Assembly (NCBI GenBank): GCA_947301965.1 | Contig: CAMYUM010000012.1 | Location: 1-48,112 of the forward strand | From: an uncultured Azospirillum sp. | GTDB taxonomy: Bacteria; Pseudomonadota; Alphaproteobacteria; RF32; CAG-239 | Length of the DNA: 48,112 nt | Reading direction: 5' to 3' | Part shown: piece by piece, positions 3,992 through 13,105 of the stretch | How positions within the stretch are numbered: position 1 is the stretch's first letter | How the letters are laid out: each line of letters starts with the position of its first letter | Made by a program: the position numbers and the translations under genes | Notes under the pieces: model-generated | The model's database searches: none | Seen by the model: only the letters and a program-made list of their open reading frames with translations | What the model was told of the DNA's origin: nothing

Positions 3992-3993
3992 TT

Positions 3994-4022
3994 TGACAAA
4001 GCAATGATAGTTTTCTAATCTG
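3994..4022 (+). promoter_or_regulatory. Promoter of structured RNA copy 1
   Basis: Perfect -35 TTGACA (3994-3999), 17-base spacer and -10 TAATCT (4017-4022), placed immediately after the gyrA terminator. Initiation is expected near 4029-4030, exactly where the folded RNA begins. Confidence 0.65.
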
Positions 4023-4029
4023 ATTTTCA

Positions 4030-4223
4030 GGTATGGGAGACCATGCCTAGGGCGTCGAAAACCCTTTATCATAGCAGTCGCCGCATAAGCGACTTAAAAA
4101 TTTTATGCCGACTTCTGTCATGGACGGATGTCGGTGAATAAGGCTGTAAGGCTAAATAAGCCGAGCCATTGCTATGATATGGTTTTCGAACATCCGCCCA
4201 CTTCTTTAAGTGGGCTTTTCTTT
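4030..4223 (+). ncRNA. Structured RNA of unrecognised class, copy 1
   Basis: About 195 bases with its own promoter and terminator. Predicted helices: a 7-bp hairpin with a GAGA tetraloop (4030-4047); a closing helix in two parts, TCGAAAACC 4055-4063 with 4181-4189 and TATCATAGCA 4067-4076 with 4170-4179; hairpin GTCGC/GCGAC (4077-4093) whose loop GCATAA can pair with TTATGC 4103-4108 (pseudoknot A); a 12-bp hairpin at 4107-4135 with one T-T mismatch and an ATG loop; a two-tier GGCT/AGCC hairpin at 4142-4167. CGGATGT 4125-4131 can pair with ACATCCG 4190-4196 (pseudoknot B), competing with the 12-bp hairpin. Copy 2 at 12831-13022 shares sequence blocks and the same helices, with compensatory changes. 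I see no tRNA-like domain, RNase P signature or SRP core. Function unknown; a trans-acting RNA or a cis regulator are both possible. Confidence 0.75.
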
Positions 4224-4244
4224 AACTCAAGGACAGGATGTTCG
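4187..4244 (+). promoter_or_regulatory. Outer 9-bp stem reaching the methyltransferase start
   Basis: CGAACATCC (4187-4195) is perfectly complementary to GGATGTTCG (4236-4244), which begins inside the purine-rich SD region (AAGGACAGG) and ends four bases before the ATG at 4248. This arm also belongs to the 3' side of the closing helix and to pseudoknot B of the structured RNA, so pairing with the start region competes with the RNA fold. Control of methyltransferase translation, in cis by read-through or in trans by the terminated RNA, is an inference. Confidence 0.45.
4196..4223 (+). terminator. Terminator of structured RNA copy 1
   Basis: Perfect 8-bp stem GCCCACTT (4196-4203) and AAGTGGGC (4208-4215) with loop CTTT, then a T-rich tail interrupted by one C. 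It lies only 25 bases before the methyltransferase start. Confidence 0.8.
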
Positions 4245-4247
4245 GTA

Positions 4248-5348
4248 ATGGCAAATGCTAACTTAAAACAGGCGAAAAAGAATAAGAAAGATGAGTTCTA
4301 TACCCAGTTGAGTGATATAGAAAATGAAATGAAACATTATAAGGATTTCTTTAAGAATAAAGTTGTTTTATGTAATTGTGATGACCCAAGAGTAAGTAAT
4401 TTTTTCCATTATTTTAGTTATAACTTTGAATATCTGGGGTTAAAGAAGTTGATTACAACTTGTTATAAGAACCAAGATATGAACTTGTTTTCAAAGAATG
4501 AGAGTGATAGAGCAGTTTATTTGGAATATGAAGGGGATAAGAATGGGGATAGGATACCTAACCCTGATGAAATTGGTATCAAGCAATTAAAAGGGGATGG
4601 AGATTTTAGAAGTAAGGAATGTATTGAGTTATTAAAACAAGCAGATGTTGTTGTGACCAACCCACCATTTTCATTATTTAGGGAATATGTGGCACAACTG
4701 ATGGAATACAATAAAAAGTTTATCATTATTGGAAATGTAAATGCCACTACATATAAAGAAATATTTAAGTTGATAAAAGAAAATAAAATGTGGATGGGCA
4801 GAAGTATTCATAGTGGTGATAGAGAGTTTCAAGTTCCAAAGGATTATCCATTATCAGCAGCAGGTTGTAGAGAAGATGAGAATGGCAATAGATTTATAAG
4901 AGTTAAAGGTGTTAGATGGTTTACCAATGTGGAATATAAGGAAAGATATGAGGATTTAGATTTATACAAGAAATATATTCCTGATGAATATCCAAAGTAT
5001 GATAATTATGATGCCATCAATGTGGATAAAACAAGTGATATACCAGTTGATTATGATGGTGTGATGGGTGTTCCAATCACATTCTTGGATAAGTATAACC
5101 CTAACCAATTTGAAATTGTTGGTTTGGGGAATTCAAGGGATAACTTTATGCCTAATAAAGATTATATCTCACCAAAGAAGGTATTAAAAGATGGTAGGAT
5201 TGTAGATGGTGGAGCAATAAATTGTGTTTTAGCAATAGAAACCGATAAGAAACCAGAAGATACAATTTACTATACCAGTGATAATAGCAAGTATTTGATA
5301 GCACCCTATGCTAGGATACTGATTAGAAAGAAAGGAACAGCAGAATGA
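4248..5348 (+). CDS. EcoRI-family adenine-specific DNA methyltransferase
   Basis: 366 residues from the ATG at 4248. The frame stays open back to 4128, but that stretch runs through the structured RNA and its terminator, and the SD AAGGACAGG supports 4248. It resembles M.EcoRI (326 residues): DEFYTQ near residue 15, NCDDPRVSNF near 43, and the N6-adenine motif NPPF near 138 followed by SLF. It should transfer methyl from S-adenosylmethionine to adenine in a short site; GAATTC is only a guess by family. The stop overlaps the start of the next gene (ATGA), so it is co-translated with a DUF262-HNH protein. Arginine is almost always AGA/AGG here, while neighbouring genes prefer CGT/CGC, and AT content is higher, both signs of horizontal transfer. 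Confidence 0.9.
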   Translation: MANANLKQAKKNKKDEFYTQLSDIENEMKHYKDFFKNKVVLCNCDDPRVSNFFHYFSYNFEYLGLKKLITTCYKNQDMNLFSKNESDRAVYLEYEGDKNGDRIPNPDEIGIKQLKGDGDFRSKECIELLKQADVVVTNPPFSLFREYVAQLMEYNKKFIIIGNVNATTYKEIFKLIKENKMWMGRSIHSGDREFQVPKDYPLSAAGCREDENGNRFIRVKGVRWFTNVEYKERYEDLDLYKKYIPDEYPKYDNYDAINVDKTSDIPVDYDGVMGVPITFLDKYNPNQFEIVGLGNSRDNFMPNKDYISPKKVLKDGRIVDGGAINCVLAIETDKKPEDTIYYTSDNSKYLIAPYARILIRKKGTAE

Positions 5349-6433
5349 AGATTGAATTACAACACATCAAAGTGAAAGATGTTGTTAAAAATTATGCCAA
5401 TAATGATGAAGAAGGTGTTGTTGGATATGGTGGTAAGTTAAATATCAGACCAAAATATCAAAGAGAGTTTGTATATGATGTAAAGCATAGGGATGCTGTT
5501 ATAGATACTATAAACAAAGGTTTCCCGTTAAATGTGATGTATTGGTGTAGGAATGAAGATGGTACATTTGAAGTGTTAGATGGGCAACAAAGAACCATCA
5601 GTATCTGTGAATATGTTAAAGGAACTTATTCCATTAAAAACTTATATTTTCATAATTTAACAGATACAGAAAAGAATAAGATTTTAGATTATGAATTGAT
5701 GATTTACATTTGTGAAGGAAATGATAAAGAAAAACTGGATTGGTTTAGAATTATCAACATAGCAGGTGTTCAACTTACAGAACAAGAATTGAGAAATGCT
5801 ATCTATACTGGTGAATGGTTATCAGATGCCAAGCATTATTTTAGTAAGAATAATTGTTTGGCATATAAAATTGCCAGTGATTATATGAGTGGTAACGCCA
5901 TCAGACAGGATTATTTAGAAACAACATTAGATTGGATTAGTGAAGGAAATATTGAAAAATATATGGCAGAGCATCAACACAATCATAATGCTATTGAATT
6001 GTGGAATTACTTTCAATCAGTGATTAGTTGGGTGAAAAACTTGTTCCCAAAATACAGAAAAGAGATGAAAGGATTAGATTGGGGACTGTTCTATAACCAA
6101 TACAAAGATAATGATTACAACCCAAAAGAATTAGAAAAACAAGTATCTACTTTAATGGCAGATGAATATGATGAAATTACTTCCAAAAAAGGAATATATG
6201 AATATGTTTTAAGTGGTAATGAGAGATGTTTAAGCATTAGAGCATTCAAGGATGGAGAAAAGAGAAAAGTATATGAAAGACAAAAAGGAATATGCCCAAA
6301 ATGTAAAAAGCACTTTGAAATAAATGAAATGGAAGCAGACCATATTACTCCTTGGAGCAAGGGCGGACATACAACAATAGACAACTGTCAAATGTTGTGC
6401 CGAGATTGCAATAGAAGAAAAAGTGCAAAGTAA
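5345..6433 (+). CDS. DUF262 (GmrSD/ParB-like) protein with C-terminal HNH nuclease
   Basis: 362 residues. The N-terminus is a DUF262 domain with the signature DGQQRT (D79-T84), found in GmrS-type subunits and other defence proteins, where it is linked to NTP binding or hydrolysis. The C-terminus is a compact HNH domain (about 309-362): CPKC (C317, C320), ADH (H333), GGH, N347 and LCRDCN (C352, C355), a zinc-ribbon-type HNH expected to cut DNA. Overlapping the methyltransferase stop by 4 bases, with AAAGGA before the ATG, suggests coupled synthesis. It may be the restriction partner of the methyltransferase or a modification-dependent nuclease. Arginine codons are nearly all AGA/AGG, as in the methyltransferase. 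The family call is strong; the role is inferred. Confidence 0.85.
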   Translation: MKIELQHIKVKDVVKNYANNDEEGVVGYGGKLNIRPKYQREFVYDVKHRDAVIDTINKGFPLNVMYWCRNEDGTFEVLDGQQRTISICEYVKGTYSIKNLYFHNLTDTEKNKILDYELMIYICEGNDKEKLDWFRIINIAGVQLTEQELRNAIYTGEWLSDAKHYFSKNNCLAYKIASDYMSGNAIRQDYLETTLDWISEGNIEKYMAEHQHNHNAIELWNYFQSVISWVKNLFPKYRKEMKGLDWGLFYNQYKDNDYNPKELEKQVSTLMADEYDEITSKKGIYEYVLSGNERCLSIRAFKDGEKRKVYERQKGICPKCKKHFEINEMEADHITPWSKGGHTTIDNCQMLCRDCNRRKSAK

Positions 6434-6470
6434 TCAGCTAATTCTCACTTCCAAAAACTTTTTTATAACA

Positions 6471-6504
6471 ACAAAGCGACCATCCTGTTGGACAGCCGCT
6501 TTGT
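6471..6504. terminator. Hairpin between convergent genes, possible terminator
   Basis: ACAAAGCG (6471-6478) pairs with CGCTTTGT (6497-6504), with TCC/GGA inside. Neither side has a convincing T-run directly after the stem, so termination is uncertain. Confidence 0.35.
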
Positions 6505-6516
6505 GTAAAGTCAATT

Positions 6517-7044
6517 CTACAAAACGCCCATTAGCTCATTACACTCAGCCGGTGGAAGTTTTGAGATCTCGCTCATCGCACGATCACACAACATGAACTT
6601 GTATTCAGCAATGACCTCTTTGCGGATATCTGCCGGAAGTTTGATCATGAGGACTTCTGCATCGTCACACAGATAATTGCCGGCTTTGAAATATGCCAAC
6701 AAGACCTCTTTGCAAGCATAAAACGGCAGACCGAAGATTTTGACGTCGGCCCGATCACATAGACAGCCGTTATGCCTAAAGTATTCCAGCAGGACTTCTT
6801 TGCAGTCACTTACCGGCAGGTCGAAAATCTTGACATCTGCGTCGTCACACAGACTACCGCCATACCTGATGTATTCCAGCAAGACCAATTTGCATTTTCC
6901 GACCGGAAGGCTAAAGAGCATGAGCTGTACCTTATTGGATAAAGAACAACCCGCTTTAATGTGAGTAAGCAGTTTATATACTGCTACATTTGAAGACAAA
7001 CTGAACCAAGAGATTTGCTCTTGCTCTGATGAAGTGTTTCTCAT
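6517..7044 (-). CDS. Orphan protein of 30-residue tandem repeats
   Basis: 175 residues, mostly four to five copies of a roughly 30-residue unit of the form LP-x3-CKEVLLEYFR-x2-G-x-LCDxADVKIF. The last copies are more degenerate, and cysteine recurs at fixed positions. The pattern of short amphipathic helices suggests a small alpha-solenoid, perhaps a protein-binding scaffold, but I recognise no named family. It has no signal peptide. Base composition resembles the host rather than the adjacent AT-rich island. There is no Shine-Dalgarno sequence in the roughly 40-base leader, although a good promoter is present at 7091-7119. The start is the only ATG at the beginning of the frame. Function unknown. 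Confidence 0.65.
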   Translation of the reverse strand: MRNTSSEQEQISWFSLSSNVAVYKLLTHIKAGCSLSNKVQLMLFSLPVGKCKLVLLEYIRYGGSLCDDADVKIFDLPVSDCKEVLLEYFRHNGCLCDRADVKIFGLPFYACKEVLLAYFKAGNYLCDDAEVLMIKLPADIRKEVIAEYKFMLCDRAMSEISKLPPAECNELMGVL

Positions 7045-7090
7045 GGTAGAATAGCTAAAAATTTAAACAATAATAACATAGATTGTTTGC

Positions 7091-7119
7091 AATCTAAGTC
7101 GAATTAACAATTATGTCAA
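7091..7119 (-). promoter_or_regulatory. Promoter of the tandem-repeat gene
   Basis: On the minus strand, TTGACA (7119-7114) and TAGATT (7096-7091) are separated by 17 bases. A 6-bp hairpin (AGATTG/CAATCT, 7080-7095) overlaps the -10. The predicted leader of about 40 bases has no SD. Confidence 0.5.
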
Positions 7120-7130
7120 ATATATTTTTG

Positions 7131-8081
7131 TCAAAGTTTTGCTAAGAACTCTTTCAAGGCCTTTTCGTCTTTCCATCGTATTTCGATTTCCAGCACCTTA
7201 AAATTCGGCTTCAGATTGTCAGGGATTTTTACAAAATCTTTGGCGGTGGTAACCAAGTCGGCATCAAGCTTTTTTGCCAATGCCATCAAATCTTCCAACT
7301 CTTTGGGCGTATAATAGTGATGATCCGGAAAATCAAAAGTCTGCACCACATTAGCCCCGCACTCTCTCAACGAGTTATAAAATTTCTCCGGTCGCCCGAT
7401 ACCGGCAAAAGCAATAACTTTTGATTCCAAATCCGGCAAGGGCAGGGAGCAAATTTGCCCCTCAAACACCGGTATTTTGCCCAATTTTTCACGCAATCCG
7501 CACTTGTCCTCGCCGATAATAATCGCCGCATCGGCACGTTTCAGCCCGGCGTCAAAAAACTCACGCAACGGACCTGCCGGTACGGGATACCCGTTACCAA
7601 TCCCCACAGCGCCGTCAAATACCAAAAATGACAAATCTTTATGCAGGCTTGGATTTTGGAAACCATCATCCATAACAATAACTTCTGCCCCGTTGGCAAT
7701 AGCGTTTTGTGCGGCTTTTGCTCGGTCAGCATTAATCGAAACGCCGGCTTCTCGTGCCAACAACAAAGGCTCATCTCCGACTTGTTGCGGTGAGTGTTTT
7801 TGCACGTCAACTACCACGCCGGAAAGCTTTCCGCCATATCCTCGCGATACAAAAAACGGCTTTTTTCCTAAAGATTTTATTATTTTTGCAATTGAAACCG
7901 CAGTCGGAGTTTTCCCGGTTCCGCCGGCAGTCAAATTGCCGATGCAAATCACCGGCACATTGACCTTTGTCGGCTTTTTGAGTTTTAAGCGCAAAGCCGT
8001 CATACCGGCATAAACACACCCCAAAGGCAACAAAGCCAATGCACATAAATTTTTATTTTTCCAATGTGAGGGCGTTTTCAT
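7131..8081 (-). CDS. lpxK: Tetraacyldisaccharide 4'-kinase
   Basis: 316 residues. Phosphorylates the 4' position of the lipid A disaccharide precursor at the inner membrane, using ATP. The diagnostic P-loop is GGTGKTP at 53-59, preceded by CIGNLTA, and the N-terminus has a hydrophobic membrane-associating segment (about 12-33). VMDDGFQN near the middle matches the family DDGFQ motif. The start overlaps the waaA stop by 4 bases (ATGA), so this is the last gene of a three-gene lipid A/Kdo operon. Length is normal for the family. Confidence 0.95.
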   Translation of the reverse strand: MKTPSHWKNKNLCALALLPLGCVYAGMTALRLKLKKPTKVNVPVICIGNLTAGGTGKTPTAVSIAKIIKSLGKKPFFVSRGYGGKLSGVVVDVQKHSPQQVGDEPLLLAREAGVSINADRAKAAQNAIANGAEVIVMDDGFQNPSLHKDLSFLVFDGAVGIGNGYPVPAGPLREFFDAGLKRADAAIIIGEDKCGLREKLGKIPVFEGQICSLPLPDLESKVIAFAGIGRPEKFYNSLRECGANVVQTFDFPDHHYYTPKELEDLMALAKKLDADLVTTAKDFVKIPDNLKPNFKVLEIEIRWKDEKALKEFLAKL

Positions 8082-12830: not shown

Positions 12831-13022
12831 GGATGGGGTGTTCCTATCTGGGGTGTGAGAACCTCGTTATCTGCGTCTGGTGTAAGACGTTAAATTTTGC
12901 ACGCCAACTAGTTATTTATACAATGACTGGAAGGCGGTAAAATAAGCCTTGCGGTCAATATATCGCACTATTTCAGATAAGTAGTTCTCAACTTCCAGTC
13001 GCCTCAAAAGGGCGACTTTTTT
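12831..13022 (+). ncRNA. Structured RNA of unrecognised class, copy 2
   Basis: About 190 bases, homologous to the RNA at 4030-4223. Shared blocks: GGGTGTGAGAACC (12851-12863), TTATC (12867-12871), TTAAATTTT (12890-12898), GGTAAAATAAGCC (12936-12948) and GTTCTCAACTTCC (12984-12996). Helices: closing helix TGAGAAC 12856-12862 with 12984-12990 and TTATCTG 12867-12873 with 12974-12980; hairpin CGTCT/AGACG (12874-12889), whose loop GTGTA can pair with TGCAC 12898-12902 (pseudoknot A); hairpin AAGGC/GCCTT (12931-12950). A perfect 9-bp pairing GACTGGAAG 12925-12933 with CTTCCAGTC 12992-13000 (pseudoknot B) overlaps the terminator stem, so the two exclude each other. GGGGTGT is repeated directly at 12835 and 12850. 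Function unknown. Confidence 0.72.
12997..13022 (+). terminator. Terminator of structured RNA copy 2
   Basis: AGTCGCC (12997-13003) pairs with GGCGACT (13011-13017), then a T-run. Its left arm is shared with pseudoknot B, so a fold that keeps B would prevent this hairpin. Confidence 0.8.
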
Positions 13023-13045
13023 ATAACTAAAAAAGGAAGTAAACT

Positions 13046-13105
13046 ATGAGCAAAAATAATACCTTAGACATACAAAAATTATACCATTTTTTCATGTTTT
13101 ACTAA
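13046..13105 (+). CDS. Possible 19-residue peptide
   Basis: ATG at 13046 follows AAAAAAGGAAG with good spacing. The frame reads MSKNNTLDIQKLYHFFMFY and stops with TAA. It sits directly after the terminator of RNA copy 2 and about 90 bases before the sugar transferase gene. It may be a leader peptide or chance; only the ribosome binding site supports it. Confidence 0.25.
   Translation: MSKNNTLDIQKLYHFFMFY

Follow-up and report, generated by a model that had tools for sequence, protein, structure and literature searches.

Leader RNAs related to sRNA-Xcc1 in gut Alphaproteobacteria, probably C4-like antisense leaders of phage type

Phage P1 keeps its antirepressor gene silent by means of an antisense RNA, C4. 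This RNA is laid out as two segments, a' and b', directed against its target, and these specificity segments differ between relatives (PMC5320573). A comparable layout can also activate: the short RNA IsrK switches on its own read-through mRNA (PMC4825925). A relative of the RNAs described here, widespread and poorly understood, is sRNA-Xcc1 (Rfam RF02221), an expressed small RNA of about 88-100 nt (88 nt in Xanthomonas; PMC2996969). It is carried on integron cassettes with symE (PMC12444791), and a title cited in that paper presents it as an sRNA acting in trans under HrpG/HrpX. Annotations of it exist in many Proteobacteria, and it has been linked to plant virulence, vesicle cargo and the integron symE cassette; the published accounts that were found offer no antisense mechanism for the adjacent gene, and the literature search returned no paper joining the name sRNA-Xcc1 with "antirepressor".

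The window analysed here, a stretch of 48,112 nt from an uncultured Azospirillum sp., contains two copies of a structured RNA, both on the forward strand. Sequence comparison makes it likely, with a probability of roughly 0.7, that both are leader RNAs of the sRNA-Xcc1 kind working like the C4 and IsrK antisense leaders of phages.

Two homologous RNAs and their fold

A preliminary description had placed two homologous structured RNAs at 4030-4223 (copy 1) and 12831-13022 (copy 2). Both sequences are found at these positions, with a conserved core that is shorter than the span then given (4049-4198 and 12850-12999). Copy 1, presumably a leader RNA up to the end of its T-run, has a predicted fold of -86 kcal/mol (z -8.0) and copy 2 one of -73 kcal/mol (z -6.6); in neither case did any of 200 dinucleotide shuffles equal the value. 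The covariance model R1 comes from 24 sequences related to copy 1, with copy 2 excluded. Searched against the window, it gives 145 bits for copy 1 (E 1e-36) and 39 bits for copy 2 (E 9e-9), and because copy 2 was outside the training set, the homology of the two copies is beyond chance. Minus-strand matches of about 20 bits in the window were discarded as mirror images, the RNA being palindromic.

The homologues expected in related genomes are present in 27 of 33 family genomes searched with R1, whose whole-genome copy numbers are undercounts (the window's own genome yields copy 1 alone, yet copy 2 scores well in the window). BLAST with copy 1 gives matches in 25 of 57 genomes, often several in each, and almost all of these genomes belong to the same family as the window. 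R1 run over 78 sources gives 66 matches, a few of them mirror-strand or weak. Many of the genomes compared are metagenome bins, and the core pattern, where it occurs in a named record, is mostly in a metagenome-assembled genome of a gut alphaproteobacterium, Azospirillum sp. CAG:239 among them. Several candidates were set aside: a weak BLAST place in the window's own genome (L003) is a chance match that resembles coding sequence, pattern matches in Terriglobia and Bradyrhizobium are likewise chance, and all seven core-pattern matches on viral contigs go back to a single region, conserved among related phages, that contains the 19-mer by coincidence and has non-matching flanks. On contig CALXZH010000012.1, two core-pattern matches stand in tandem about 240 nt apart (L167:1799-2058).

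In the 24-sequence alignment, the proportion of cells that pair is 93.5%, and double-sided changes occur at 15 pairs, in agreement with the covariation first read from the two copies. None of 500 shuffles matches the observed pairing values, except for further pair types (8/500), and registers slid by 1-3 columns give only 32-48% pairing. The outer helix, 5-bp hairpin, loop pairing and second long-range pairing reported earlier are all present, with counterparts in copy 2; a GGG/CCC stem and hairpin P3 had been overlooked. The GGG/CCC stem (4050-4064) closes a loop that pairs far downstream, forming a compact pseudoknot: the loop, TCGAAAA at 4055-4061, is the 5' strand of outer helix P1a, and its partner is TTTTCGA at 4183-4189 (b'), with three pairs double-changed. 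Helix P1b, hypervariable and copy-specific within genomes, joins 4068-4076 to the a' loop at 4170-4178, with double-sided changes at eight of nine counted pairs. Hairpin P2 (4077-4081 with 4089-4093) pairs in all 24 sequences, with two double-changed pairs; it continues, up to 4108, into a loop pseudoknot of GCATAA (4083-4088) with TTATGC (4103-4108), read by inspection only. Hairpin P3 (4107-4135; 98.1% of cells paired, two double-changed pairs) sequesters the strand GGATGT at 4126-4131.

That strand has an alternative partner, ACATCC at 4190-4195, just before the terminator, so the alternative and pseudoknotted pairings that had been suggested are borne out, with P3 as competitor. Both GGATGT pairings are retained in nearly all alignment sequences, and for this reason the RNA looks bistable. 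Folded alone, the 3' half adopts the form in which GGATGT pairs with the anti-SD strand; in copy 2, sequence and the fold of the 3' half alone point to GACTGGAAG (12925-12933) as the internal partner of that strand. The alternative outer helix is nearly invariant inside the alignment, its support coming from comparison between subfamilies and not from internal covariation.

A terminator scan places an intrinsic terminator at the end of both copies (4196-4215, or 4196-4223 up to the end of the T-run, and 12997-13017), as the preliminary description had it; the -10 box that it gave for copy 1 is weak. The putative promoter of copy 1 (3993-4021, plus strand) consists of TTGACA, 17 nt and TAATCT, and scores under the threshold of a general promoter scan. 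In relatives, the best promoter-like match clusters upstream of the RNA (15 of 53 at -28/-29); it is position alone that clusters, the general promoter score being in small excess over shuffles (8.51 versus 8.20).

Copy 1 lies in a variable segment: similarity to the congener G002 breaks off at the promoter (about 3994), and in G002 the site is taken up by other genes. Copy 2 is located 3' of a tRNA, with 241 nt identical in G002. The segment after gyrA (3994-7164) has the look of a defence hot spot, with a methyltransferase and a GmrSD/HNH endonuclease in the window and, in G002, a different insert encoding a 592-aa protein with zinc-ribbon-like motifs. Dispersed and multi-copy elements, one of them in a segment replaced in a congener, might also be recombination sites or the ends of mobile cassettes, acting as DNA and not as RNA, and the presence of sRNA-Xcc1 on integron cassettes with symE (PMC12444791) fits such an idea. 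It is nevertheless highly improbable, given the frequent G-U exchanges in the helices of the 24-sequence alignment, the promoter-like and terminator elements, and the constant orientation towards a gene start and covariation with the Shine-Dalgarno (SD) region described below; no recombinase association was seen at the loci examined, in a search that was not systematic.

Kinship with sRNA-Xcc1 and the phage loci

The view that the RNA belongs to no known class is not supported in the form then given. Only tRNAs reach the gathering score in an Rfam scan of the window; with relaxed thresholds, RF02221 matches copy 1 at 4122-4207 over the full model and with the right topology, at 33.3 bits (E 3.8e-4, or 2.8e-4 per genome), which is under the gathering score of 53 bits, and copy 2 has no RF02221 match in the relaxed Rfam search (E 5). 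Several relatives match at 34-39 bits, and one family member exceeds the gathering score, with 56 bits. Searches with RF02221 find matches at comparable places in 60 of 82 family genomes, as against none of 14 controls, and 18 matches in a single genome (G102); phylum-wide, 58 of 399 genomes match, 39 of them above the cut-off. Reciprocally, R1 matches phage-type sRNA-Xcc1 loci and, with its training confined to the gut family, finds a Mannheimia phage leader at E 1.3e-7. We treat the window RNAs as distant relatives of sRNA-Xcc1, through their 3' half, that fail its formal cut-off.

Above-threshold sRNA-Xcc1 loci in other Proteobacteria contain the full-length element, with a similar 5' hairpin. 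In these bacteria and in phages, the RNA lies directly 5' of antirepressor genes (AntA/AntB, Bro-N, KilA-N, Rha, P22_AR) or of symE. The downstream proteins of 25 non-gut loci include Bro-N (five), Rha (three), SymE (two), P22_AR_N (one) and KilA-N (one), and PHROGs labels several of the non-gut proteins anti-repressor. Among named phages, three have the RNA immediately 5' of an antirepressor gene, with RF02221 scores of 62-78 bits: Pmp1 of Pasteurella, Rac-SA53 of Escherichia and 1152AP2 of Mannheimia. The gene that follows it in Moraxella phage Mcat15 is unnamed. A relative occurs in 159 of 5426 E. coli genomes, and in all eight E. coli regions that were read it precedes genes for AntA/AntB, ORF6N or Ant, some of which the annotation marks as incomplete.

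In the E. coli prophages, the 5' half of the RNA recurs in the target region, which offers pairing sites, a for a' (the hairpin loop) and b for b', on either side of the SD or overlapping it; examples of b are TTCGAAA and TTCAGAA, and of a, ACAAACA and CCAAAAGA. Both b' and a' vary together with the target. Over 28 non-gut loci, complementarity to the target reaches z 7.5 and repetition of the 5' half at the target z 6.4. Three single loci or groups deserve mention. At L088, a SymE toxin gene lies 3' of an sRNA-Xcc1 of 83 bits, and its start region contains CTCACAGGAG, which complements CTGTGAG in the RNA, a pairing that suggests a mechanism for the Xanthomonas symE cassette. One prophage-like locus combines an sRNA-Xcc1 antirepressor leader with a sub-threshold c4-2 RNA match (L097:2890-2958), and some E. 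coli prophages have two antirepressor genes in tandem, the first annotated as incomplete (L254-L259).

Complementarity to the adjacent gene in the gut family

Two features of the context escaped the preliminary description: a frame starts about 25-30 nt after the terminator at both copies, and the strand before the terminator complements the SD of that frame. In copy 1, the anti-SD strand CGAACATCC (4187-4195), which includes the alternative partner of 4126-4131, is an exact 9-nt complement of the SD region GGATGTTCG (4236-4244). The presumed target is an EcoRI-type adenine methyltransferase gene (4248-5348; Pfam EcoRI_methylase, E 4e-144), and the gene after it (5345-6433) has Pfam matches to GmrSD_N and an HNH endonuclease and is probably the partner of the methyltransferase. 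In copy 2, the complement is 6 nt, ACTTCC (12991-12996) with GGAAGT (13035-13040), the compensatory change having occurred in all three strands. This SD belongs to an ORF of 19 codons from 13046 (13035-13105 with the SD), followed by a glycosyltransferase, so the original target of copy 2 may have decayed. Relatives with its SD type precede type IV pilin-like genes.

The same arrangement recurs in most family copies, in which a gene starts shortly 3' of the RNA and the pre-terminator strand has its reverse complement in the SD of that gene. The two change together: AACATCC/GGATGTT, AACTTCC/GGAAGTT, AACACCC/GGGTGTT, AGCTCC(AT)/(AT)GGAGCT and GAACTCC/GGAGTTC. The longest exact complement, longer than ribosome binding would require, averages 6.9 nt over 78 loci, and 20,000 permutations of the partners never rise above 6.05 (z 10.4); the duplex energy is -14.7 kcal/mol, against a permuted minimum of -12.6. 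Some family loci are without a matching SD or an obvious gene (for example L056, L073 and L005). It could be argued that the RNA acts solely in trans, on distant targets, and that its match to the next SD is incidental, which would suit the trans-acting role under HrpG/HrpX in the title cited in PMC12444791. Coupling to the adjacent gene far beyond permutation, in two independent sets, leaves this with hardly any probability, the least of the readings weighed here.

How might such a leader work? At most loci, the gap between terminator and SD leaves too little room for a separate promoter, which makes read-through the simplest inference for expression of the downstream gene. Transcription would begin upstream and in most cases halt at the intrinsic terminator, leaving a transcript of about 195 nt; read-through would produce the mRNA of the gene some 25 nt beyond the terminator, to whose translation-initiation region the 3' strand of the RNA is antisense. 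In the window family, this strand would pair with the SD itself (GAACATCC with GGATGTTC; ACTTCC with GGAAGT), so that the gene could stay untranslated. When the full-length RNA is folded in the predicted way, both antisense segments are tied to the 5' half by the long-range "address" helices, and GGATGT is tied up in P3, which would leave the anti-SD free. In the alternative fold, that of sRNA-Xcc1, the anti-SD would be buried against GGATGT and the SD would be open; some trigger would presumably flip the RNA from one fold to the other.

The opposite sign is conceivable. As in an IsrK-like activator, the anti-SD could block the SD in the read-through mRNA until the terminated short RNA, from the same promoter, opened it in trans. 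As in isrK, RNA and gene are separated by an intrinsic terminator; the short RNA of IsrK is known to turn on its own read-through mRNA (PMC4825925); and copy-specific complementarity between 5' and 3' parts would let a short RNA recognise the mRNA from which it came. C4, however, the other close analogue, represses, and the comparisons would fit either sign; activation seems to us unlikely, though well ahead of the remaining alternatives, and repression by an antisense leader is the reading followed below.

Such a leader would not use the full C4 mode in the gut family. Unlike the phage set, the window family does not repeat the 5' half (the a-site) at the target (direct-repeat z 0.6), and with that repeat lost the full mode does not apply; SD pairing would be done instead by the outer-helix strand and the edge of b'. 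Besides the EcoRI-type methyltransferase gene of the window, the downstream genes include those for autotransporters, lipoproteins (some with PEGA domains), type IV pilin-like proteins, outer-membrane proteins, HTH proteins and APH-type phosphotransferases. Their identity suggests that the family controls translation of lipoproteins, autotransporters, pilins and restriction-modification genes. They have no metabolic theme, which counts against a ligand-sensing riboswitch acting through the terminator and SD sequestration. Compact pseudoknots, apparent bistability, and terminator and SD control in one leader would all suit a riboswitch, but besides the target genes, the long-range helices vary among the copies of a single genome, the rest of the RNA being constant, and the phage relatives precede antirepressor genes. 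A riboswitch was rejected on the target genes and hypervariable helices, and is very improbable.

Gut Alphaproteobacteria resembling Azospirillum CAG:239 have up to 18 copies per genome. In G102, the leaders of one group (b) are near-identical except for the two long-range helices, which differ yet remain complementary: pairing with the own partner is predicted at -22.1 kcal/mol versus -12.0 with others, and the own partner is best in 9/9. The own partner is also best in 6/6 of a second G102 group (a), in 6/7 in G005 and, by row, in 5/5 in G019. With the windows chosen, specificity is not significant in G087 (-13.3 versus -13.5, a fixed window taking in shared pairing) and in G028, with too few copies. 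In several genomes, the long-range helices can be read as a self-specific code in which each copy has its own matching address helix.

G102 also encodes 17 or more paralogous secreted proteins, Cys-rich and with a common N-terminus, QCVATQDCETLGYTETSC, nearly all of their genes lying behind an RNA leader of their own (L028-L045); this is possibly a variable surface-protein family. In G005, small secreted proteins with the motif TMTVTATIAHDVSL are expanded, each behind an AACTTCC-type leader (L048-L055). A tentative extension, which we consider doubtful, is that an immunity-type antisense RNA of phages has been domesticated into a genome-wide, copy-addressed switch, in which up to 18 surface-protein paralogues, each behind its own leader with a private complementary code in the two long-range helices and free of cross-talk, would be turned on singly as in antigenic variation, the code deriving from phage heteroimmunity. 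If the gut branch does work in this general manner, bacteria have reused a phage-type decision RNA for surface and restriction genes, with a self-specific code.

Comparison with described antisense leaders

The family is probably a C4-like antisense leader of phage type, domesticated in gut Alphaproteobacteria; the direction of descent, from phage to host, is suggested by distribution and not by a tree. With the C4 RNA of phages P1 and P7 (RF01695; c4-2, RF02944), which is processed by RNase P, the phage-type relatives have in common a place upstream of antirepressor genes and two antisense segments, a' and b', against the initiation region of the target (z 7.5 and 6.4, as above); family, phage and E. 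coli loci all share the position directly 5' of the target gene. The fold differs, and the gut family retains only the SD-side pairing (z 10.4, against z 0.6 for the repeat). The Rfam C4 models give no match in the window (E 5), in its own genome (E 1) or in the phage-type RNAs themselves. Because the C4 layout is present but the C4 models fail to match, these RNAs would work like C4 without being filed as C4.

IsrK of Gifsy-1 (RF01394) is likewise a leader RNA with an intrinsic terminator, a read-through mRNA (that of an antirepressor operon) and alternative folds that control translation. At the sequence level only, the corresponding traits here are the terminator between RNA and gene and the two folds kept in the alignment; the IsrK model matches neither copy at E 5, and IsrK differs in that its short RNA activates in trans. 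The C4-like Group 1 sRNAs of Acinetobacter baumannii (PMC5320573) offer a parallel for the multiplication of a phage-type antisense fold in a bacterial genome, with variable specificity loops; they are true C4 by Rfam, and their targets were undetermined in that work, whereas those of the gut family are adjacent and covary.

The closest kin by sequence remains sRNA-Xcc1. Its whole model is covered by the 3' half of the window RNA (outer helix, AATA-flanked hairpin and a' hairpin), and adjacency to a downstream gene is shared; the window copies differ in a conserved 5' half outside the Rfam model, in their intrinsic terminator and in pairing with the SD through the outer-helix strand. For sRNA-Xcc1 itself, these comparisons supply a concrete mechanism that can be tested, in which the RNA would be a leader antisense to the gene next to it, the antirepressor gene in the case of phages.
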